In this document: one piece after another, positions 1,840 through 11,383 of the stretch
Numbering within the stretch: position 1 is the stretch's first letter
Layout of the letters: each line of letters begins with the position of its first letter
Made by a program: the position numbers and the translations under genes
The notes under the pieces: model-generated
Told to the model about the DNA's origin: nothing
Databases searched by the model: none
The model's input: the letters and a program-made list of their open reading frames with translations, nothing else
DNA from: Lysobacteraceae bacterium UBA6001
GTDB taxonomy: Bacteria > Pseudomonadota > Gammaproteobacteria > Xanthomonadales > Xanthomonadaceae
Length of the DNA stretch: 11,383 nt
Direction of reading: 5' to 3'
NCBI GenBank assembly: GCA_002429615.1
Contig: DJAN01000311.1
Coordinates: forward strand, 1 to 11,383

Positions 1840-3533
1840 ACCCCTGGCAGATCGCCACCGCCGGCGTGATCGCGCTGGCCACGCTGGCCGGCCTGTGGCG
1901 CGTGTGGCGCCAACCGCGCAGCGCGCGCCGGGCGGGCTTGCTGGCACTGCAACCGCTGTGCGCGCTGGCGCTTTACTTCACCCTGTATCCGCTGCCACGC
2001 GCCAGCGAGGGCGGCACGCTGGTGGTACTGACGCGCGGTGCAGCGCCGGTGGGCGGTCGCGATGTCATCGCATTGCCCGAAGCCGGCGCGCCGCAAGGCG
2101 CCGTGCCGGTTCCCGATCTCGCCACCGCGCTGCGCCAGCGTCCCGGCGTCGCGCGGCTGCAAGTGCTCGGCGAAGGCTTGCCGGCGCGCGACCGCGACGC
2201 CGGCGCCGCGTTGCCACTGCAGTTCCAGGCGCCCGCGCCGACACCCGGGCTGGCGGGGCTGTCCACGCCGCCGCCGGTCGCCCCGGGCAATGCGTTCGAG
2301 GTGGAAGGGCAGGTGGTGGGCTGGCCGCGTGGCCGCGTCGAGCTGCTCGATCCGGCCGGCAATCGCGTGGATGCCGCGCCCTTCGACGCGCACGGGCGCT
2401 TCCGCCTGCAGGGCCAGGCACGCCTGGCCGGGCAGGTGCTGTTCTCGGTGCGCGTGCTCGATGCCGAGGGCCGCGAGCGCGATCGCCAGCCGCTGCCGCT
2501 GCACGTGGTGGAGCCGACGCCGTTGCGCGTGTGGATCCTGGCCGGCGCGCCACAACCGGAATGGAAGTACCTGCGCCGCTGGGCCGCCGATGCCGGCGTG
2601 ACGTTGCACACGCAGATCGCCGTGGGCGGTGGCCTGCAGCTGGGCGACGCGCCCAAGCCGCTGGACGCCGCCACCCTGACCGGCTTCGACCTGCTCTGGC
2701 TCGACGAGCGCGCATGGAGCGGCCTGTCTGCCTCGCAGCGCGCGGCGATACGCGAGGCCACGCGCGGCGGCCTGGGCGTACTGGTGCGGCTGGCCGGGCC
2801 GCTCGACAACGGCGCCCGCCAGGCGCTGGCGTCGTTCGGGTTGCCGCTGAAGGGCGGCAACGCCAGCGCGCCCGTGTCATGGCCGGTCGCCGAAGGCAAA
2901 ACGCCTGTCGTGCTGGGCCGGCGTGATTTCGCACCCGACGCCGCGCTGTCGGTGCTCGCCCGCGACGCCGGTGGAACGCCCTACGCATGGTGGCGCGGCC
3001 TCGGCCAGGGACGTATCGGCGTGACCACGCTCACCGACAGCTGGCAGTTGCCGCTGGCCGGCGAAAGCGCCGCGCACGGCCGCCTGTGGAGCGCGATGCT
3101 GGCCACGCTGGCGCGCGCCCGCACGCATGGCGCGTCGTTCGATATCCCGACGCCGGCATGGGCCGGCGAACGCGTGGTGATCTGCGGGCTCGCAACGAAT
3201 CCACAGGTGCGCGACCCCGCGGGTGCGATGCACGCGCTCATCCGCGATCCCGCGAGCGGCGACTGCGCCGCCTATTGGCCGGCGCAGGCCGGCTGGCACA
3301 CCTTGGGCACGGGGGAGGACGCCACCCCGTTCTACGTGCGCGACCCGGCGCAGGCGAAGGCCGCCTTCGCGCGGGAGCAGGCCCTGCAGACCGCGCGCCT
3401 GGTCACGCCGCCCCATGCGGTGAGTGGCGGCGCGAGCATGACGCGACACCCCGGTTCGCGCTGGCCGGCGTGGTGGGCATTCGTGCTGCTCGCCGCGGCG
3501 TGCGCGTGGCTGGAGCGGGCGCGTCGCGTCTAG
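1836..3533 (+). CDS. membrane protein with periplasmic amidotransferase-like region (Bat-type operon)
   Basis: The ATG at 1836 overlaps the previous stop (ATGA), giving 565 residues; this start places two hydrophobic helices at the N-terminus (about residues 5-23 and 34-52). A third helix sits at the extreme C-terminus (WWAFVLLAAACAWLERARRV). Between them is a large region, probably periplasmic. About residues 58-130 look alpha/beta. About 150-225 form a carboxypeptidase-regulatory or Ig-like beta domain (VEGQVVGWPRGRVELLDPAG). From about 229 there is a class I glutamine-amidotransferase-like fold (LRVWILAG, then FDLLWLDERAW, LSASQRAAIREATRGGLGVLVRLAG). I see no convincing Cys-His-Glu triad, so it is probably a non-catalytic scaffold, as in other Bat/VWA-operon membrane proteins. 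Its TAG stop shares a CTAG with the facing methyltransferase gene. The family assignment is by resemblance only. Confidence 0.88.
   Translation: MNPWQIATAGVIALATLAGLWRVWRQPRSARRAGLLALQPLCALALYFTLYPLPRASEGGTLVVLTRGAAPVGGRDVIALPEAGAPQGAVPVPDLATALRQRPGVARLQVLGEGLPARDRDAGAALPLQFQAPAPTPGLAGLSTPPPVAPGNAFEVEGQVVGWPRGRVELLDPAGNRVDAAPFDAHGRFRLQGQARLAGQVLFSVRVLDAEGRERDRQPLPLHVVEPTPLRVWILAGAPQPEWKYLRRWAADAGVTLHTQIAVGGGLQLGDAPKPLDAATLTGFDLLWLDERAWSGLSASQRAAIREATRGGLGVLVRLAGPLDNGARQALASFGLPLKGGNASAPVSWPVAEGKTPVVLGRRDFAPDAALSVLARDAGGTPYAWWRGLGQGRIGVTTLTDSWQLPLAGESAAHGRLWSAMLATLARARTHGASFDIPTPAWAGERVVICGLATNPQVRDPAGAMHALIRDPASGDCAAYWPAQAGWHTLGTGEDATPFYVRDPAQAKAAFAREQALQTARLVTPPHAVSGGASMTRHPGSRWPAWWAFVLLAAACAWLERARRV
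3530..3533. other. CTAG shared by two convergent stop codons
   Basis: On the plus strand TAG (3531-3533) ends the amidotransferase-like membrane protein gene; on the minus strand TAG (3532-3530) ends the DUF938 methyltransferase. The palindrome CTAG serves both, so there is no intergenic space for a separate terminator. Confidence 0.95.
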
Positions 3534-4156
3534 GGCGCGCGGGCGCCGCCCCGACGCCACAGCAGGCAGAAGTTGTTGGCCGGCATCGCGAAGCGTCCGA
3601 TCTCGCGCAGGCCCGCCGTGGCAGCCAGCGCCTGCACCGCTTCGAGGTCGCGGATGCCGCCTTCGGCGTATTCGGTCTTCAACCACGCATCGAAGGTGCG
3701 GTTGCTTTCGCTGGTCGGCTGGCCGCCGATGTTGAACGGGCCGTAGACCGCCAGCAGCGCATCGGGCGCCATCAGGGCCGGCAGGCTCGCGAACAGCGCC
3801 TGCACCCGCGGCCAACCCATGATGTGCAGCGTGTTGGCGGTGAACACCGCATCGAAGCCGCCCGACGGCAACGCGGGCATGGGCTGGAGGCCGCCCTCCC
3901 ACTCGGATTGCAGCGCGATGGCCGGGCGCAGGTTCGGCAGCCCCGCTTCCGCGCGCCAGGCCTCGATGCCGGGCAGCGCATCGGGATGGTCGCTGGGCTG
4001 CCATTGCAGCCACGGCATCGCCGCGGCGAAGTGCACGGCGTGCTGGCCGGTGCCGCTGCCGATCTCCAGCACCTGGCGGCGGTCGCCGAAGTAACCGCGC
4101 AGCACGCCGAGGATCGGGTCGCGGTTGCGTTCGGCGGCGGGGGAGTGGGGCTTCAT
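3530..4156 (-). CDS. DUF938 family SAM-dependent methyltransferase
   Basis: This encodes a 208-residue class I methyltransferase of the DUF938 family (PF06080, related to human METTL26), whose substrate is unknown. The N-terminal MKPHSPAAERNRDPIL is typical of the family. The SAM-binding motif I is at residues 29-38 (VLEIGSGTGQ), followed by WQPSDHPDALPGIEAW as the motif II region. FDAVFTANTLHIMGW is at 100-114, YGPFNIGGQPTSESNRTFDAW at about 137-157, and MPANN near the end. Length and motifs are complete for the family. The ATG at 4156 was chosen because it matches the usual family start. However, an AAGGA at 4174-4170 is 13 bases from it and only 7 from an in-frame GTG at 4162, which would add two residues (fMet-Pro). 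It is transcribed divergently from the MgtC-family gene and converges on the upstream envelope operon. Confidence 0.93.
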   Translation of the reverse strand: MKPHSPAAERNRDPILGVLRGYFGDRRQVLEIGSGTGQHAVHFAAAMPWLQWQPSDHPDALPGIEAWRAEAGLPNLRPAIALQSEWEGGLQPMPALPSGGFDAVFTANTLHIMGWPRVQALFASLPALMAPDALLAVYGPFNIGGQPTSESNRTFDAWLKTEYAEGGIRDLEAVQALAATAGLREIGRFAMPANNFCLLWRRGGARAP

Positions 4157-4172
4157 CGGCACAGGATAGTCC

Positions 4173-4793: not shown

Positions 4794-5234
4794 ATGAACC
4801 ACGCCCTCCGCCAGCAGATCCACATTGCCGCCGCGCCGGAGGTGGTCGCGACCGCGTTGACCCAGCCCGCGCACATGGCGCAATGGTGGACACGCGAGGC
4901 GGAGGGCGACGGCCGCCATGTGCGGCTGGACTGGAGCGCGCACGGCTGGATGGTCGAGCTGGATGTATTGCACGATGTCGACCGCCGCCGCGTGGTCTGG
5001 CACTGCACGCGCTCCAACATGCTCGACAGCCCGGCATGGGTCGGCTCGTCGATGTGCTTCGAGCTGCATCCCACCGCCAGCGGCACGCGGGTGGACTTCG
5101 CCCACCTCGACTACCCCGACGCGCCCTGCAAGGACACCTGCGAAGGCGGCTGGGCGTTCTTCCTCGGTCGCAGTCTCAAGCAGTACCTGGAAACCGGGCA
5201 GGGCATGCCCTACCCGGACACGTTGTCGACCTAG
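4794..5234 (+). CDS. SRPBCC (AHSA1/START-like) domain protein
   Basis: This 146-residue protein has the layout of the SRPBCC superfamily, a helix-grip fold enclosing a hydrophobic ligand cavity. The N-terminus (LRQQIHIAAAPEVVATALT) gives the first strand and helix, and HMAQWWTREAEGDG the segment after it. WMVELDVLHDVDRRRVVWHC and SSMCFELHPTASGTRVDF are further strands. The C-terminal helix carries CEGGWAFFLGRSLKQYLETG, typical of AHSA1-type members. The start at 4794 is the first ATG aligned with the expected N-terminus, with GGGGA 7 bases upstream. The ligand and biological role cannot be read from sequence. It follows the MgtC-family gene after 85 bases and may be co-transcribed or have its own promoter. 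Its stop TAG shares a CTAG with the facing thioredoxin gene. Confidence 0.9.
   Translation: MNHALRQQIHIAAAPEVVATALTQPAHMAQWWTREAEGDGRHVRLDWSAHGWMVELDVLHDVDRRRVVWHCTRSNMLDSPAWVGSSMCFELHPTASGTRVDFAHLDYPDAPCKDTCEGGWAFFLGRSLKQYLETGQGMPYPDTLST
5231..5234. other. CTAG shared by two convergent stop codons
   Basis: TAG at 5232-5234 ends the SRPBCC gene on the plus strand and TAG at 5233-5231 ends the thioredoxin gene on the minus strand. This is the second convergent pair in the window joined in exactly this way. Confidence 0.95.
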
Positions 5235-5566
5235 GCCGGCACGGCGTCCCACAGCGCCAGCGCATCGGCCAGGTCCGCCGGCGAACGCGGCCGCACCACC
5301 CGCGCCACTTCCTCGCCGTCGCGCAGCAGCACCACGGTCGGCCACAGCTTGACGCGATAGGCGCGACCCAGCGGCTGGCCCTTGCCGTCCTCGACCTTCA
5401 GGTGGATCGCGTCGGCGCGCGCGTCCACCGCCTGCGCCAGCGCCGGTTGCGCGGCCTGGCAATGCCCGCACCAGGGCGCGCCGAATTCCAGCGCGACACG
5501 GCCGGGCAGCGCCGCTACCTGTGCGATCTCCGGCTCACGGCCGGCATAGTCGCGGGCGAAGCCCAC
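5231..5566 (-). CDS. small thioredoxin-fold protein with CGHC active site
   Basis: This encodes 111 residues with a thioredoxin fold: a strand VALEFGAPWCGHC (active site C33-G-H-C36), a following helix, a strand AIHLKVEDG, the cis-proline loop LWPTVVLLRDGEEV (P76), and a C-terminal helix. The active-site dipeptide is Gly-His, as in eukaryotic PDI, rather than the Gly-Pro of canonical thioredoxin; this usually goes with a more oxidising redox potential. No signal peptide is seen, so it is probably cytoplasmic. The GTG at 5566 is the first ATG, GTG or TTG after the in-frame stop upstream, but no clear Shine-Dalgarno precedes it. It begins 10 bases past the stop of the upstream host-attachment-like gene, so translation is probably coupled to that gene. 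Confidence 0.88.
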   Translation of the reverse strand: MGFARDYAGREPEIAQVAALPGRVALEFGAPWCGHCQAAQPALAQAVDARADAIHLKVEDGKGQPLGRAYRVKLWPTVVLLRDGEEVARVVRPRSPADLADALALWDAVPA

Positions 5567-5576
5567 CGGCGTGGAC

Positions 5577-5969
5577 TCAGCCGAGCGCGCGCTGGATGTC
5601 CGCCAGCGGCGCGTTGGTCAGATCCTTGGCCATGTCGCCCAGCAGGCGCGCCTGGGTTTCCTTGTGCAGCAACGGACGCAGCCGGCCCAGCGTGGCGGGA
5701 TCGGCCACCAGCAGCAGGTGCGCGTAGCGGTTGTTCAAGGCGCCTTCGTTGAGCTGGGACGCGAGCTGCTTGGCGAAGGTCGCCTCGTCGAGCTGCGCCA
5801 GGCTCATGTCGGCCGGCACCGCGCCGGACGGGCCCTGGCCTTCGGCGCTCTGCAGGTCCATCAGCTGGTGCAGCTGCAGGCCGCCCTTCTCGGCCACATT
5901 GGCGAACACGCGGGCGGAGCCGCCATCGGCCACCACGACCACGGTGCCTTCTGGAATGCGCTGGGCCAT
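5577..5969 (-). CDS. host attachment family (baeRF-like, PF10116) protein
   Basis: This 130-residue protein matches the 'host attachment protein' family, which has been placed with bacterial/archaeal homologues of release factor eRF1 (baeRF). Diagnostic stretches are TVVVVADGGSARVF at residues 9-22, the EKGGLQLHQLMDLQSAE segment, FAKQLASQLNEGALNNRY, and HLLLVADPATLGRLRPLL followed by a helical C-terminus. The old name comes from plant-host attachment of Agrobacterium; the eRF1-related fold suggests a role in translation or ribosome rescue, but the function here is unproven. The start at 5969 is fixed by a strong AAGGAG 7 bases upstream. A longer in-frame reading to 6218 runs through the intergenic region and into the opposite helicase gene, and is not supported. 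It is the first gene of a minus-strand pair with the thioredoxin. Confidence 0.9.
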   Translation of the reverse strand: MAQRIPEGTVVVVADGGSARVFANVAEKGGLQLHQLMDLQSAEGQGPSGAVPADMSLAQLDEATFAKQLASQLNEGALNNRYAHLLLVADPATLGRLRPLLHKETQARLLGDMAKDLTNAPLADIQRALG

Positions 5970-5976
5970 CTCGGTT

Positions 5977-5982
5977 CTCCTT
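5977..5982 (-). promoter_or_regulatory. ribosome binding site of the host-attachment-like gene
   Basis: AAGGAG on the minus strand ends 7 bases before the ATG at 5969 and decides between that start and longer in-frame alternatives. Confidence 0.85.
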
Positions 5983-6018
5983 CTGGGGGGAACCCACAGC
6001 CTGCAGTGCGGGGTGTGA

Positions 6019-6126: not shown

Positions 6127-8625
6127 ATGGCCCACGCCCTCGCCCCGCGCACCGAGGACGCCGAGCGCGCGCTCTCCACCGTGGATGGCATCCCGGCACG
6201 CGATGGCGCGTTGCTCACCGCGCGGCTGTCGCGCCGCTACCACGACCGGATCACCGGCAGTTTCACCATTCCCGGGCGTGAAGGCCGTTACGCGCCGCTG
6301 CCGGACGACCTGCCACCGGCGTTGGCCACGGCACTGCGCGCGCGCGGCATCGAGCAGCTCTACAGCCACCAGGCCGAAGCCTGGGCCGCCACCCGGCGCG
6401 GCGAGCACGTGGCGGTGGTGACCCCCACCGCCAGCGGCAAGTCCCTGTGCTACACGTTGCCGGTGGTGGCCGCGGCGATGACCCGCCGCGCCAAGGCGCT
6501 GTACCTGTTCCCGACCAAGGCGCTGGCGCAGGACCAGGTCGCCGAGCTGCTGGAGCTCAACCGCGCCGGCGACCTGGGCGTGAAAGCCTTCACCTTCGAT
6601 GGCGATACGCCTGGCGACGCGCGCCAGGCGATCCGCCTGCATGGCGACATCGTGGTCTCCAATCCGGACATGCTGCACCAGGGCATCCTGCCGCATCACA
6701 CCAAATGGGCGCAGTTCTTCGAGAACCTGCAGTACGTGGTGATCGACGAGGTGCATACCTACCGCGGCGTATTCGGCAGCCACGTCACCAATGTGCTGCG
6801 CCGGCTCAAGCGCATCTGCGCGTTCTATGGCGTGAGCCCGCAGTTCATCCTGTGCTCGGCGACGATCGGCAACCCGCAGGCGCATGCCGAGGCGCTGATC
6901 GAGGACCGCGTCTGCGCGATCACCGAATCCGGCGCGCCGGCCGGTGACAAGCACGTGCTGCTGTGGAATCCGCCGGTGGTCAACCCGGACCTGGGCCTGC
7001 GCGCGTCGGCGCGTTCGCAGAGCAACCGGATCGCGCGCATCGCGATCAAGTCCGGGCTCAAGACCCTGGTGTTCGCGCAGAGCCGGTTGATGGTGGAAGT
7101 GCTGACCAAGTACCTGAAGGACATCTTCGACCACGACCCGCGCAAGCCGCCACGCATCCGCGCCTATCGCGGTGGCTACCTGCCGACCGAACGCCGCGAG
7201 GTGGAGAAGGCGATGCGCGCCGGCGACATCGACGGCATCGTCAGTACCTCGGCGCTGGAGCTGGGCGTGGATATCGGCGCGCTCGACGTGGTGGTGCTCA
7301 ACGGCTATCCCGGCAGCGTGGCGGCGACCTGGCAGCGCTTCGGCCGCGCCGGCCGCCGCCAGCAGCCGGCGCTGGGTGTACTGGTGGCCAGCTCGCAGCC
7401 GCTCGACCAGTACGTGGTGCGGCACCCGGATTTCTTCGCCGACGCCTCGCCCGAACACGCGCGCATCGCGCCGGACCAGGCGCTAATCCTGTTCGACCAC
7501 ATCCGCTGCGCCGCGTTCGAATTGCCGTTCAACGCCGGCGAGCCGTTTGGCCCGGTGGACCCGGTGGTGTTCCTGGAGGCATTGGCCGAAAGCGGCGTGA
7601 TCCACCAGGAAGGCGAGCGCTGGGAGTGGATCGCCGACAGCTACCCGGCCAACGCGGTCAGCCTGCGCTCGGTGGCCGATGGCAACTTCGTGGTGGTGGA
7701 CCGCAGCGACGGCAAGCAGCAGATCATCGCCGAGGTCGATTACTCGGCTGCCGCGCTCACCCTGTACGAAGGCGCCATCCACATGGTGCAGAGCACGCCG
7801 TACCAGGTCGAGCGGCTGGACTGGGAAGGCCGCAAGGCCTACGTCACCCGCACGCACGTGGACTACTACACCGACAGCATCGACTACACCAAGCTCAAGG
7901 TGCTGGACCGCTTCAACGGCGGCCCGGCCGGGCGTGGCGACAGCCATCATGGCGAGGTGCACGTGGTGCGGCGTGTGGCCGGCTACAAGAAGATCCGCTA
8001 CTACACCCATGAAAACATCGGCTATGGCCCGGTCAACCTGCCGGACCAGGAACTGCACACCACCGCGGTGTGGTGGCAGCTGCCGCAGGCCACGCTGGGC
8101 AAGGCGTTCGCCTCGCGCCAGGACGCGCTGGACGGCTTCCTCGGCGCGGCCTATGCGCTGCACGTGGTGGCGACGGTGGCGGTGATGGCCGATGCGCGCG
8201 ACCTGCAGAAGGCCGTGGGCAATGGCGACGGTGCCTGGTTCGCGGTGGCCGACCAGAGCGGTCGTGGCCAGCTGCGGGGCGCCGATGGCGCCGAAGGCCA
8301 CGTCGAGCTGCAGCAGGCGTTCGTGCCGACGGCGTACCTGTACGACAACTTCCCTGGTGGCGTCGGCCTCAGCGAGCCGCTGTGGCAGCGCCAGGCCGAA
8401 CTGGTGATGCGCGCCGGCGAGCTGGTGCAGCGTTGCGACTGCAAGGCGGGCTGCCCGGCCTGCGTGGGCCCGGTGCTGGCCGCGCAGGAACAGGGTGAGG
8501 GCGCGACGCCGAAGACGTTGGCGTTGAAGGTATTGGCCCTGCTGGCGCAGCTCGACGCCGGCGCGCGCGATACGGCGGATGACGAGGCATCGGGCACTGC
8601 GCTGGAGGCGGCGACGTGGGCGTAA
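6127..8625 (+). CDS. mrfA: MrfA/YprA-type DEAD/DEAH-box helicase with DUF1998/MZB cysteine module
   Basis: This is an 832-residue superfamily 2 helicase. Helicase motifs are all present in order. Motif I is TPTASGKS (99-106), Ia FPTKALAQDQ (129-137), Ib VSNPDML (177-183), II DEVH (207-210) and III SAT (244-246). Motif IV is LVFAQSRL (314-321), V STSALELGVDIG (373-384) and VI QRFGRAGRR (403-411). The C-terminal half has YDNFPGGVGLSE (739-750) and four cysteines C770, C772, C776 and C779 (CDCKAGCPAC), the zinc-site signature of the DUF1998/MZB module. This is the architecture of B. subtilis MrfA (YprA) and fungal Hrq1, helicases acting on crosslinked or adducted DNA. The start at 6127 has GGGGA 7 bases upstream and begins MAHALAPRTE; in-frame ATGs at 6049 and 6091 would add 26 or 12 residues. 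It overlaps the following exonuclease gene by 10 bases, so the two are certainly co-translated. Orthology is inferred from motifs and neighbour. Confidence 0.93.
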   Translation: MAHALAPRTEDAERALSTVDGIPARDGALLTARLSRRYHDRITGSFTIPGREGRYAPLPDDLPPALATALRARGIEQLYSHQAEAWAATRRGEHVAVVTPTASGKSLCYTLPVVAAAMTRRAKALYLFPTKALAQDQVAELLELNRAGDLGVKAFTFDGDTPGDARQAIRLHGDIVVSNPDMLHQGILPHHTKWAQFFENLQYVVIDEVHTYRGVFGSHVTNVLRRLKRICAFYGVSPQFILCSATIGNPQAHAEALIEDRVCAITESGAPAGDKHVLLWNPPVVNPDLGLRASARSQSNRIARIAIKSGLKTLVFAQSRLMVEVLTKYLKDIFDHDPRKPPRIRAYRGGYLPTERREVEKAMRAGDIDGIVSTSALELGVDIGALDVVVLNGYPGSVAATWQRFGRAGRRQQPALGVLVASSQPLDQYVVRHPDFFADASPEHARIAPDQALILFDHIRCAAFELPFNAGEPFGPVDPVVFLEALAESGVIHQEGERWEWIADSYPANAVSLRSVADGNFVVVDRSDGKQQIIAEVDYSAAALTLYEGAIHMVQSTPYQVERLDWEGRKAYVTRTHVDYYTDSIDYTKLKVLDRFNGGPAGRGDSHHGEVHVVRRVAGYKKIRYYTHENIGYGPVNLPDQELHTTAVWWQLPQATLGKAFASRQDALDGFLGAAYALHVVATVAVMADARDLQKAVGNGDGAWFAVADQSGRGQLRGADGAEGHVELQQAFVPTAYLYDNFPGGVGLSEPLWQRQAELVMRAGELVQRCDCKAGCPACVGPVLAAQEQGEGATPKTLALKVLALLAQLDAGARDTADDEASGTALEAATWA
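8604..8608 (+). promoter_or_regulatory. Shine-Dalgarno of the exonuclease gene, inside the helicase gene
   Basis: GGAGG lies 7 bases before the GTG at 8616, within the last codons of the helicase frame. It supports the GTG start and the 10-base overlap of the two genes. Confidence 0.85.
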
Positions 8626-9620
8626 GCGCCGACAAACTGCGGCTGTTGCGTCGGCAGGCGGGCACCGCGGTGCCGGAGCCGAAGGCCGCTGTGCCATCTG
8701 CCGCGCCACCCGCCGAACCCGCTCCCGCGAACGAGCCGGTCTTCGCCTGGGTCGAGCGCGAGGTGCGCCACAAGCCAATGGCGGGCAGCCCCTCGGCACT
8801 CCCGGTGCCGACACCCGAACCGCGTCGGCGTGGCACCGACATGGACGCGCTGCGCCGGTTGATCGGCCTGCGCGAGCGCGCCATCCCCGCCGCCGCTGCG
8901 CCGGTGCGACGCGCCAGCGCGCGTGATCGCCACCTGCCCGGCGAGGAGATCGCGCCCGGCCTGCATCTGGTCGAAGCCTTCCTGCCGCAGGCGATTCCCA
9001 CGCAGCCGCTGTCGCTGGCGTTCGCGCGCCGCGAGGACACCGTCGCGCCGCAAGACCTGCTGTTCTTCGATACCGAGACCACCGGCCTGGCCGGCGGCAC
9101 CGGCACGCGCGCCTTCATGATCGGCGCGGCCGACTGGCATCACGATGCGGCGCGCGGCCCGGGCCTGCGCATCCGCCAGCTGATGATGGCCACGATGGCC
9201 GCCGAAGCCGCGATGCTGGATACCTTCCGCGGCTGGCTGGCGCCGGGCACCGTGCTGTCCAGCTACAACGGGCGCTGCTACGACGCACCCTTGCTGAAGA
9301 CGCGTTACCGGCTGTCGCGACGCGGCGATCCATTGTCCGCACTCGACCATGTGGATCTGCTGTTCCCTACCCGCCGCCGCTATCGCGGCACCTGGGAGAA
9401 CTGCCGGCTGGCGACCATCGAGCGCCAGTTGCTGCACATCGTGCGCGAGGATGACCTGCCGGGTTCGCAGGCACCGGCGGCGTGGCTGCATTACCTGCGC
9501 GGCGGCGACGCCATCGACCTGCGCCGGGTCCTGGCGCACAACCACCAGGACGTGGTGACGCTGGCGCAGCTGATGCTGCGGCTCATCGAAGCCGAGGCAC
9601 AAGACACCTCCTCCCCGTAG
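8616..9620 (+). CDS. mrfB: MrfB/YprB-type RNase H-fold 3'-5' exonuclease
   Basis: This encodes 334 residues starting at a GTG with an excellent GGAGG. About 110 residues of Ala/Pro/Arg-rich, poorly ordered N-terminal sequence, opening with SADKLRLLRRQAG, precede the nuclease domain. The domain is of the RNase_H_2/YprB type (PF13482). FFDTETTG carries D152 and E154, SSYNGRCYDAPLL carries D223, and HNHQDVVTL carries D312, giving the four acidic residues of a DEDD two-metal exonuclease. DHVDLLFPTRRRYRGTWENCRL and DDLPGSQAPAAWLHYL are further family hallmarks. In B. subtilis MrfB is a metal-dependent DNA exonuclease acting with MrfA in mitomycin C repair, independent of UvrABC. The gene overlaps the helicase by 10 bases. 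The protein ends soon after the nuclease domain, without the C-terminal TPR-like extension I recall in the Bacillus protein. Confidence 0.92.
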   Translation: MGVSADKLRLLRRQAGTAVPEPKAAVPSAAPPAEPAPANEPVFAWVEREVRHKPMAGSPSALPVPTPEPRRRGTDMDALRRLIGLRERAIPAAAAPVRRASARDRHLPGEEIAPGLHLVEAFLPQAIPTQPLSLAFARREDTVAPQDLLFFDTETTGLAGGTGTRAFMIGAADWHHDAARGPGLRIRQLMMATMAAEAAMLDTFRGWLAPGTVLSSYNGRCYDAPLLKTRYRLSRRGDPLSALDHVDLLFPTRRRYRGTWENCRLATIERQLLHIVREDDLPGSQAPAAWLHYLRGGDAIDLRRVLAHNHQDVVTLAQLMLRLIEAEAQDTSSP

Positions 9621-9678: not shown

Positions 9679-9703
9679 TCACCCTGCTCCCTACCCTGTG
9701 CGC

Positions 9704-9725
9704 CGCGATCCGCTGCCGGATCGCG
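9704..9725. promoter_or_regulatory. perfect 9-bp hairpin in the TpsB leader
   Basis: CGCGATCCG (9704-9712), loop CTGC, then CGGATCGCG (9717-9725) form a perfect inverted repeat ending 5 bases before the Shine-Dalgarno AGGAG (9731-9735). No T-run follows, so a terminator for the exonuclease gene is unlikely. A leader hairpin or a dyad operator for the transporter gene fits better. Confidence 0.55.
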
Positions 9726-9745
9726 TTCCCAGGAGCGGTGCGAGC

Positions 9746-11383
9746 ATGGATCCGACGCCCCCCCATCGTCGCCACAGCGGGTGGAAGCGATGCATTGGTG
9801 ATGTGCTTTTTGCAGCGCTCTCCCTCGTGGCCGCCCTCGGCGCGCTCCCGTTGCAGGCACAGCCGGCCACGCCCGCCGCGCAGGTGCAGCGCCAGCAGGA
9901 CGAGCGAGAACGTCAGCTCCGCGAACAGCTCGAAGCGCCCGCCGACGTTCGTCGTGACGACGAGCGGACGGCACGTGGCCTGCGCCGCCTGCCGGCCACG
10001 CCGGAATTACCCTGCTTCCGCATCGCCCGCATCGTCCTGGCCGGAGAGGACAGCGCGCGCTTCCACTGGGCGCTGAAGGCAGCCAACCCGCGAAACGACC
10101 GCGCCATCGGCCGCTGCCTGGGCACGCAGGGCATCAACCTCGTGCTGGCGCGCGTACAGGACGCGGTGGTCGCGCACGGCTACATCACCACCCGGGTACT
10201 CGCCGGCCCGCAAGACCTGACCGGCGGCACGCTGATGCTGACCGTGGTGCCCGGCCGCGTGCGTACGGTTCGCTTCGCCCAACCGGTGCCCGGCCACGCC
10301 AGCCTGCGCAATGCGGTGCCGGCCACGCCCGGCACGCTGCTCAACCTGCGCGACATCGAACAGGGCCTGGAGAACCTGCAGCGCGTGCCGAGCGCCACCG
10401 CCGACATCCGCATCGAACCGGCACAGGGCGATACGGCCGGCCCCGGTGACAGTGACCTGGTCGTCGCGTGGTCGCAGCCGCGGCCCTGGCGCGGCAGCCT
10501 GTCGATCGATGACGCCGGCAGCCGGGCAACCGGCAAGCTGCAGACCAACGCCATGCTCGCGCGCGACAACCCGCTGGGTTGGCATGACCTGTTCTACCTC
10601 AACGTCGGCCACGACGTGTTCAACGGCAACGGCCGGGGCAGCGGCAACTGGACCGCGCACTACGACGTGCCACTGCGACGCTGGCTGTTCGGCGTTACCG
10701 CTGGCGGCTACGAGTACCGGCAGACCATCGCCGGCGCTTTCGAGGACTACGCGTATCGCGGCCGCAGCGACAACGCCGAGCTGCGCGCTGGCCTGCTGTT
10801 GTTCCGCAACGCGCGCAGCCGCCTGAACCTGCACGGCTACGGCTGGCGCCGCGCCAGCCGCAACTACATCGACGATACCGAAGTGCGGATCCAGCGCCGC
10901 GCCACCGCCGGCTGGGCCGTGGGCCTGGATGTGCGGCAGTTCATCGGTGCCGGCAGCCTGGAGGCCGGTATCGACTATCGGCGCGGCACCGGCGCCTTCC
11001 ACGCCCTGCATGCCCCGGAGGAAGCCTTCGGCGAAGGCAGTTCGCGCATGCGCCTGCTCAGCGCCGACGCGCGCCTGAGCATGCCGTTCCGGCTCGGGAA
11101 GCAGTCACTGCGCTACCTCGGCAGCTGGCGTGCGCAGTGGAACCACACCGCGCTGGTGCCGCAGGACCGCTTCGCCATCGGCGGCCGCTACAGCGTGCGC
11201 GGCTTTGACGGCGAGATCTCACTCACTGGTGATCGCGGCTGGTGGCTGCGCAACGAAGCCGAGCTCGCGTTGGGCGGCGGCCAGGCGTTCTACCTCGGCC
11301 TGGACTACGGCCATGTCGCTGGCGGCGCGGCCGCGCGCTGGCAGCCCGGCGACCACCTGGCCGGCGCCGCGATCGGCCTGCAC
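9746..11383 (+). CDS. TpsB-type two-partner secretion outer-membrane transporter (ShlB/FhaC/HecB family), 3' end missing
   Basis: The frame runs unbroken from the ATG at 9746 for 546 codons to the last base, so the C-terminus is outside the window. AGGAG (9731-9735) is 10 bases upstream. A signal peptide is clear: basic n-region (HRRHSGWKR), hydrophobic core VLFAALSLVAALGAL, likely cleavage after LQA (residue 38). About residues 40-80 form a Gln/Glu/Arg-rich plug or linker helix. A POTRA_2 domain spans about 88-178 (PCFRIARIVLAG to VVPGRVRTVRF), with C90 and C124 placed for a disulphide. The ShlB barrel begins near NLRDIEQGLENLQRVPS (200-216), continues with WRGSLSIDDAGSRATGKLQ, and carries the diagnostic VRGF of loop L6 at 484-487. 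TpsB proteins export one large beta-helical TpsA exoprotein (haemagglutinin, haemolysin, CDI toxin); the partner would be expected next to it, downstream. Family lengths suggest only a few tens of residues are missing. Confidence 0.93.
   Translation, partial: MDPTPPHRRHSGWKRCIGDVLFAALSLVAALGALPLQAQPATPAAQVQRQQDERERQLREQLEAPADVRRDDERTARGLRRLPATPELPCFRIARIVLAGEDSARFHWALKAANPRNDRAIGRCLGTQGINLVLARVQDAVVAHGYITTRVLAGPQDLTGGTLMLTVVPGRVRTVRFAQPVPGHASLRNAVPATPGTLLNLRDIEQGLENLQRVPSATADIRIEPAQGDTAGPGDSDLVVAWSQPRPWRGSLSIDDAGSRATGKLQTNAMLARDNPLGWHDLFYLNVGHDVFNGNGRGSGNWTAHYDVPLRRWLFGVTAGGYEYRQTIAGAFEDYAYRGRSDNAELRAGLLLFRNARSRLNLHGYGWRRASRNYIDDTEVRIQRRATAGWAVGLDVRQFIGAGSLEAGIDYRRGTGAFHALHAPEEAFGEGSSRMRLLSADARLSMPFRLGKQSLRYLGSWRAQWNHTALVPQDRFAIGGRYSVRGFDGEISLTGDRGWWLRNEAELALGGGQAFYLGLDYGHVAGGAAARWQPGDHLAGAAIGLH

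Follow-up and report, generated by a model that had tools for sequence, protein, structure and literature searches.

A MrfAB-type helicase and exonuclease gene pair with a TPR-less MrfB in a Lysobacteraceae bacterium

The mrfA and mrfB genes

The stretch of DNA analysed here, referred to as the window, covers 11,383 nucleotides of contig DJAN01000311.1 from Lysobacteraceae bacterium UBA6001 (assembly GCA_002429615.1), and carries on its forward strand two overlapping genes: mrfA, which encodes a superfamily 2 (SF2) DNA helicase, and mrfB, which encodes an exonuclease. Their closest solved relatives are MrfA and MrfB of Bacillus subtilis, and at the level of sequence the filing of the pair as MrfAB is correct. 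The main features are the following:

6127..8625, forward strand: mrfA (yprA), SF2 DNA helicase of 832 aa (Pfam, PDB match, alignment)
8434..8463, forward strand: codons of the zinc-binding CxCx3CxxC module, C770 to C779 of MrfA (sequence, alignment)
8604..8608, forward strand: GGAGG, a Shine-Dalgarno-like site within mrfA, 7 nt ahead of the mrfB GTG (sequence)
8616..8625, forward strand: overlap of 10 bases between the mrfA stop and the probable mrfB start (shared by the near relative L008; most named relatives overlap by 4 bases)
8616..9620, forward strand: mrfB (yprB), DEDDh 3'-5' exonuclease of 334 aa, without TPR domain (Pfam, PDB match, alignment, TPR-end profile)
8622..8663, forward strand: conserved MrfB N-terminal stretch, residues 3-16, VSADKLRLLRRQAG, proposed as a MrfA-docking peptide (alignment, motif search, model helix 3-14)
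8664..8915, forward strand: MrfB linker, about residues 17-100, poorly conserved and mostly of low confidence, predicted disordered (alignment, model)
8934..9617, forward strand: MrfB exonuclease core, about residues 107-334, with D152, E154, the wedge L158, Y222, D223, the basic loop R253/R254/R257, H308 and D312

Both proteins were compared with chosen subsets of the fetched relatives (14 sequences for MrfA, 16 for MrfB). MrfA matches the Pfam families DEAD, Helicase_C, WHD_HRQ1 and MZB, each above its gathering cut-off (46.8 bits against 24.2 for MZB, PF09369), and contains what we take to be the Walker A motif TPTASGKS (residues 99-106), followed by DEVH (207-210), SAT (244-246) and QRFGRAGRR (403-411). 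Helicase motif positions are nearly all invariant across the aligned MrfAs, as are C770, C772, C776 and C779 in all 14. The best solved relative is B. subtilis YprA/MrfA (6znp, E 4.7e-217; runner-up 7.3e-22): residues 40-693 and the zinc module at 730-784 align with this protein (PDB 6znp, 6znq, 6zns), whereas residues 694-729 remain unaligned, and the window MrfA is longer at both its N- and C-terminal ends. The top NCBIfam match, TIGR03817, scores 615.9 bits, short of its curated cut-off of 874.1, and the other listed matches likewise fall below theirs. Genomes G238 and G352 additionally encode a distant YprA-like helicase (43% identity), on a contig other than that of MrfAB.

MrfB matches the Pfam family RNase_H_2 above its gathering cut-off and has no match in NCBIfam. 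B. subtilis MrfB (8un9) is its sole PDB sequence match (E 9.9e-26) and also the top PDB fold match of its structural model (E 6.6e-9). Once the 8un9 sequence alignment is placed on the numbering of PMC11194089, B. subtilis D107, E109, L113, D172, H258 and D262 correspond to D152, E154, L158, D223, H308 and D312 of the window, and F171, R203, R204, K207 and R212 to Y222, R253, R254, R257 and N262. The five DEDDh residues and the wedge leucine are invariant in 16/16 aligned MrfBs, and three of the four basic-loop residues are kept, R212 being the one replaced. In B. subtilis, Leu113 and the basic loop are required for repair according to PMC11194089, which also describes an unstructured N-terminus ahead of the core, as in the window. 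The window protein differs from B. subtilis MrfB in its longer linker, in N262, and in lacking the C-terminal TPR domain. Comparison with L008 gives dN (non-synonymous divergence) of 0.014 and dS (synonymous divergence) of 0.268 for mrfA, and 0.020 and 0.361 for the mrfB core (225 codons), which indicates that both genes are coding and under purifying selection.

The initial annotation had described, from the sequence, an SF2 helicase with a C-x-C-x3-C-x2-C module overlapping by 10 bases a DEDD exonuclease preceded by a Shine-Dalgarno site, and had assigned the two to MrfA/MrfB. Open reading frames, Pfam domains and alignments bear out this description, both proposed profile checks (MZB and RNase_H_2) lie above their cut-offs, and the best match of the helicase is YprA/MrfA, not a helicase outside the YprA/Hrq1 clade.

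Co-occurrence, gene order and overlap

The mrfA and mrfB genes come and go together. In a survey of 119 genomes of the family (MrfA at E <= 1e-100, MrfB at E <= 0.001, sets compared by eye), MrfA was found in 73, MrfB in 73, both in 72 and neither in 45, that is, both genes in 72 of the 74 carriers. The remaining two are G014, with MrfA only on a contig that stops about 100 nt past mrfA, and G112, in which MrfB is preceded only by a 118-aa MrfA remnant (query residues 664-781) and the pair is decaying. Coordinates place both genes on one contig, on the same strand and with mrfA upstream, in 69 of the 72 genomes, and on different contigs in G030, G041 and G118. At the level of the order, where MrfB only was surveyed, it occurs in 46/121 genomes (four of them weak, E above 1e-6). 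Across the class, the identical 13 of 274 genomes carry MrfA (E <= 1e-80) and MrfB, two of them belonging to the window's family; and among 299 genomes of the phylum, MrfB (E <= 1e-15) is found in 15 and MrfA (E <= 1e-80) in 14, all shared, the MrfB of the fifteenth (G624) beginning at contig base 3. These surveys share some genomes. Gene order was also followed in 80 named loci, selected as the top 80 of 581 relatives by similarity to the window MrfB: mrfA lies upstream in 76 of them, and the other four have 2-20 bases before the match, which makes 76/76 loci with enough upstream DNA. The adjacency across Xanthomonadales proposed in the initial annotation is therefore kept, both in the family survey and in the named loci. 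One of these loci, L064 (JAHREJ010000024.1), is titled Bacillus subtilis SK7B5 and holds a Stenotrophomonas-like mrfAB (61% identity to the window MrfB), so that the record is probably a contamination or carries a wrong label.

Could the two genes simply be neighbours by chance, overlapping as a result of genome compaction and acting apart? The overlap length varies, and the genes are far apart in two genomes of the phylum, by about 3 Mb on a 4.7-Mb contig in G501 and on different contigs in G507; shorter spacings of about 2.8 kb and 1.8 kb are seen in G568 and G238. However, both genes occur in the same genomes even when they are not adjacent, the order of the genes is constant in the named loci, and a natural MrfA-MrfB fusion exists (P0121, 1248 aa, with DEAD, Helicase_C, WHD_HRQ1, MZB and RNase_H_2), so this explanation can be given hardly any weight. 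P0121 has both parts of the pair but differs in joining them in one chain, and is a single metagenomic sequence; it is the only complete fusion, since P0126, P0128 and P0129 have no zinc domain in their precomputed Pfam lists. Four other metagenomic proteins of 787-829 aa (P0122, P0123, P0124 and P0125) join a MrfB-like RNase_H_2 domain to PF07228, and two of them are named RsbU-type phosphatases by a source.

In its length of 10 bases, the overlap is a local variant of the common arrangement. Taking the first possible mrfB start gives an overlap of 4 bases in 63 of the 76 named loci that have mrfA ahead of mrfB. The junction of L009, from the same genus, reads GTGGGAATGAGC and contains a GTG upstream in addition to the usual ATGA, while in the window and L008 (GTGGGCGTAAGC) the mrfA stop is TAA (8623-8625 in the window) and the ATG is gone, which makes the GTG 10 bases inside mrfA the probable start of mrfB; further possible starts lie 20 and 44 bases beyond the mrfA stop. 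This arrangement suggests translational coupling and is no proof of stoichiometry. The fixed stoichiometry that had been read from the overlap is thus a weak claim, given the variable overlap and the two genomes with distant genes.

TPR loss and the N-terminal helix of MrfB

The absence of the TPR domain from the window MrfB, a point that the initial annotation does not mention, is shared by nearly all relatives sampled from the order. Nine outgroup MrfBs supplied their C-terminal parts for a profile, which was run against 163 loci that contain a MrfB core; several of these loci are the same contig fetched twice (e.g., L009 and L057), and three have vague or odd titles (L104, L120 and L064, the last labelled Bacillus subtilis). 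The profile matched 21 of them (11 from the class outside the order, nine from elsewhere in the phylum, and L137); nine of the 21 had served to build it and 12 are independent. All 20 MrfBs from outside Xanthomonadales hence have the C-terminal TPR part. The other 142 loci gave no match, including at least three (L011, L013 and L014) in which the locus ends too early for a judgement. Within the order, every MrfB judged lacks the TPR part except L137 (from G411, of the same order); the window protein ends 7 residues past the core, and longer ends that do not match the profile are seen in L052 (52 residues), L136 (83) and L138 (30). Pseudomonadota MrfABs from outside the order (L037-L047 and L162-L172) resemble the window pair in having both proteins, in the order A then B where adjacent, and mostly the N-terminal helix described below, but their MrfBs keep 102-139 post-core residues that match the profile, the lower value being a contig-end cut.

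The loss of the TPR domain looks old, though not necessarily a single event. A MrfA tree of 52 rows shows one change of TPR label, with a branch support of 100/99; as it comprises 52 of 56 chosen loci and leaves out L137, this single change is too clean, and a quick tree of 33 rows that includes L137 shows two changes, L137 pairing with the TPR-less L138. Since MrfB is spoken of in PMC12458937 by its exonuclease domain plus its association with the helicase, the window protein is still filed as MrfB, as a TPR-less variant.

At the other end of the protein, ahead of the linker, lies a conserved N-terminal helix motif, KLRxLRRQAG. Motifs were scored in 153 of the 163 loci, the 10 without MrfA in the locus being left unscored: a loose motif anchored at the start was found in 143/153, and the fuller [KR]LxxL[RKQHY]xx[AST]G in 125/153, both counts being inflated by repeated contigs. 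For comparison, among all 84,731 start codons in the fetched loci that are followed by 20 open codons, the fuller motif, with a slightly different anchoring, occurred 156 times, MrfB starts included. The unlinked MrfBs of L169 and L171 likewise start with such a helix. In the model of the window MrfB (from 36 sequences; mean predicted local distance difference test score, pLDDT, 81.0; predicted template modelling score 0.70), the core is mostly above 90, residues 3-14 form a helix, and confidence is mostly low up to about residue 100. PMC11194089 presents an AlphaFold-Multimer model (interface predicted template modelling score, ipTM, 0.807) in which the N-terminal helix of B. subtilis MrfB is docked in a cleft of MrfA. 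The window helix would correspond to this docking helix, and by analogy the conserved short helix may clip MrfB to MrfA. Four MrfBs of Xanthomonas and Stenotrophomonas koreensis (L059, L060, L061 and L089; 485-616 aa) have apparently very long linkers between helix and core.

A tentative extension, which we consider somewhat more likely to be wrong than right, is that MrfAB has been rebuilt in Xanthomonadales: the TPR domain, a possible scaffold, would have been dropped, and coupling would depend on one short conserved N-terminal helix held on a fast-evolving leash of tens to several hundred residues. If true, the order would amount to a natural separation-of-function experiment, in which the essential contact with MrfA is made by the N-terminal helix and not by the TPR domain, and the substrate range may have shifted. 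An order with TPR-less MrfBs that mostly keep the N-terminal helix makes direct testing feasible in Gram-negative bacteria.

A putative repair role and the surrounding genes

Taken together, we put at about 80% the probability that the window carries a chromosomal MrfAB in which MrfA unwinding and digestion by a helix-tethered, TPR-less MrfB proceed past bulky adducts in parallel to UvrABC. MrfA would unwind DNA in the 3'-5' direction beside a bulky adduct, such as a mitomycin C monoadduct or intrastrand crosslink; MrfB, tethered to MrfA by a short N-terminal helix with a flexible leash, would digest the exposed 3' end past the lesion; and in Xanthomonadales it would do so without the C-terminal TPR domain. 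The substrate, the polarity, the direct MrfA-MrfB contact and the independence from UvrABC are carried over from work on B. subtilis, and repair of mitomycin damage by the window pair is likewise presumed by analogy. UvrA, UvrB and UvrC are each represented by a single above-cut-off match in the window's genome, which would make MrfAB a second route here, like its B. subtilis counterpart. The assignment of the window genes to MrfAB, a known repair pair and no new system, is well supported, and their TPR-less form is common to nearly all sampled relatives of the order. The description of the pair as poorly characterised in Gammaproteobacteria thus holds in that no experimental study of a Xanthomonadales pair was found in open-licence literature, judged by titles and abstract openings, and fails in that the pair as such is known.

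Several observations weigh against this interpretation. The fold match to 8un9 is moderate (template modelling score 0.42 by query and 0.59 by target, root-mean-square deviation 6.8), the modelled helix at residues 3-14 has a block pLDDT of only about 70, and 10 of the 153 scored loci, including L137, L138, L164 and L165, have neither N-terminal motif. The authors of PMC11194089 interpret their two-hybrid data as indicating the exonuclease core. The window MrfB lacks the TPR domain found in the type protein, and in that study a TPR-deleted B. subtilis MrfB complements solely at the highest expression tested; because it does complement when highly expressed, the TPR domain is taken here as accessory. 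No LexA-like box was found in the window with a single search pattern, nor any consensus promoter with a consensus scan. Finally, PMC12458937 describes the pair as widespread, with fusions and species-specific complementation that needs closely related alleles, so that the substrate may differ here.

This last point opens the way to another reading, that of a MrfAB homologue with a different main substrate (another adduct or a replication block) and only minor mitomycin C sensitivity. The species-specific function reported in PMC12458937 speaks for it, as do the missing TPR part and the distribution of the pair, common in the family (73/119) and rare across the class (13/274, two of this family). 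Nevertheless, nearly every residue tested in B. subtilis is conserved, and the compared relatives share 61-89% identity in MrfA, so that the mechanism is probably the same, and a different main substrate appears unlikely.

A role as an anti-phage defence pair of the YprA family, of the DISARM, Druantia or ARMADA kind, is very unlikely. PADLOC models such as BrxHI, DruE, DrmA and DpdF do match MrfA, and the same family includes defence helicases (PMC12458937). However, these matches cover the shared helicase core, the best reaching 6e-45 against 4.7e-217 for 6znp; by these E-values, which come from two libraries of different kind, the window helicase stands nearer to MrfA than to the YprA helicases of defence systems. 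MrfB-associated helicases sit in a DNA repair branch in the same study, and MrfB itself has no PADLOC or PHROG match. A mobile origin was also considered and rejected: MrfB finds nothing in 50,697 phage records and a single weak match in 72,556 plasmid records, and the pair has no match in E. coli DNA. No defence gene was found among the eight Pfam-scanned proteins of the window, which include both flanking genes (the first 1.8 kb and the rest of the genome outside this contig lying beyond the scan), and none of these eight is a defence partner such as a PglX-kind methyltransferase, a PLD or Vsr nuclease or a BrxHII-like helicase. The neighbouring genes identified by Pfam are:

3530-4168, reverse strand: DUF938 methyltransferase-like gene
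5231-6008, reverse strand: thioredoxin and baeRF_family12/Host_attach genes, upstream of mrfA
9698-11383: gene for a secretion pore of the ShlB/FhaC type, with POTRA domains, continuing past the window end

A scan of the window with a terminator consensus gave no match. A larger operon was rejected, as the flanking genes (baeRF/Host_attach, thioredoxin, AHSA1 and ShlB) were matched by tblastn only in L008, L009 and L057, a comparison that covers the nearest genes alone, many loci spanning about 1.5 kb per side. L009 and L057 being one contig, these genes lie beside mrfAB in two genomes of the genus.

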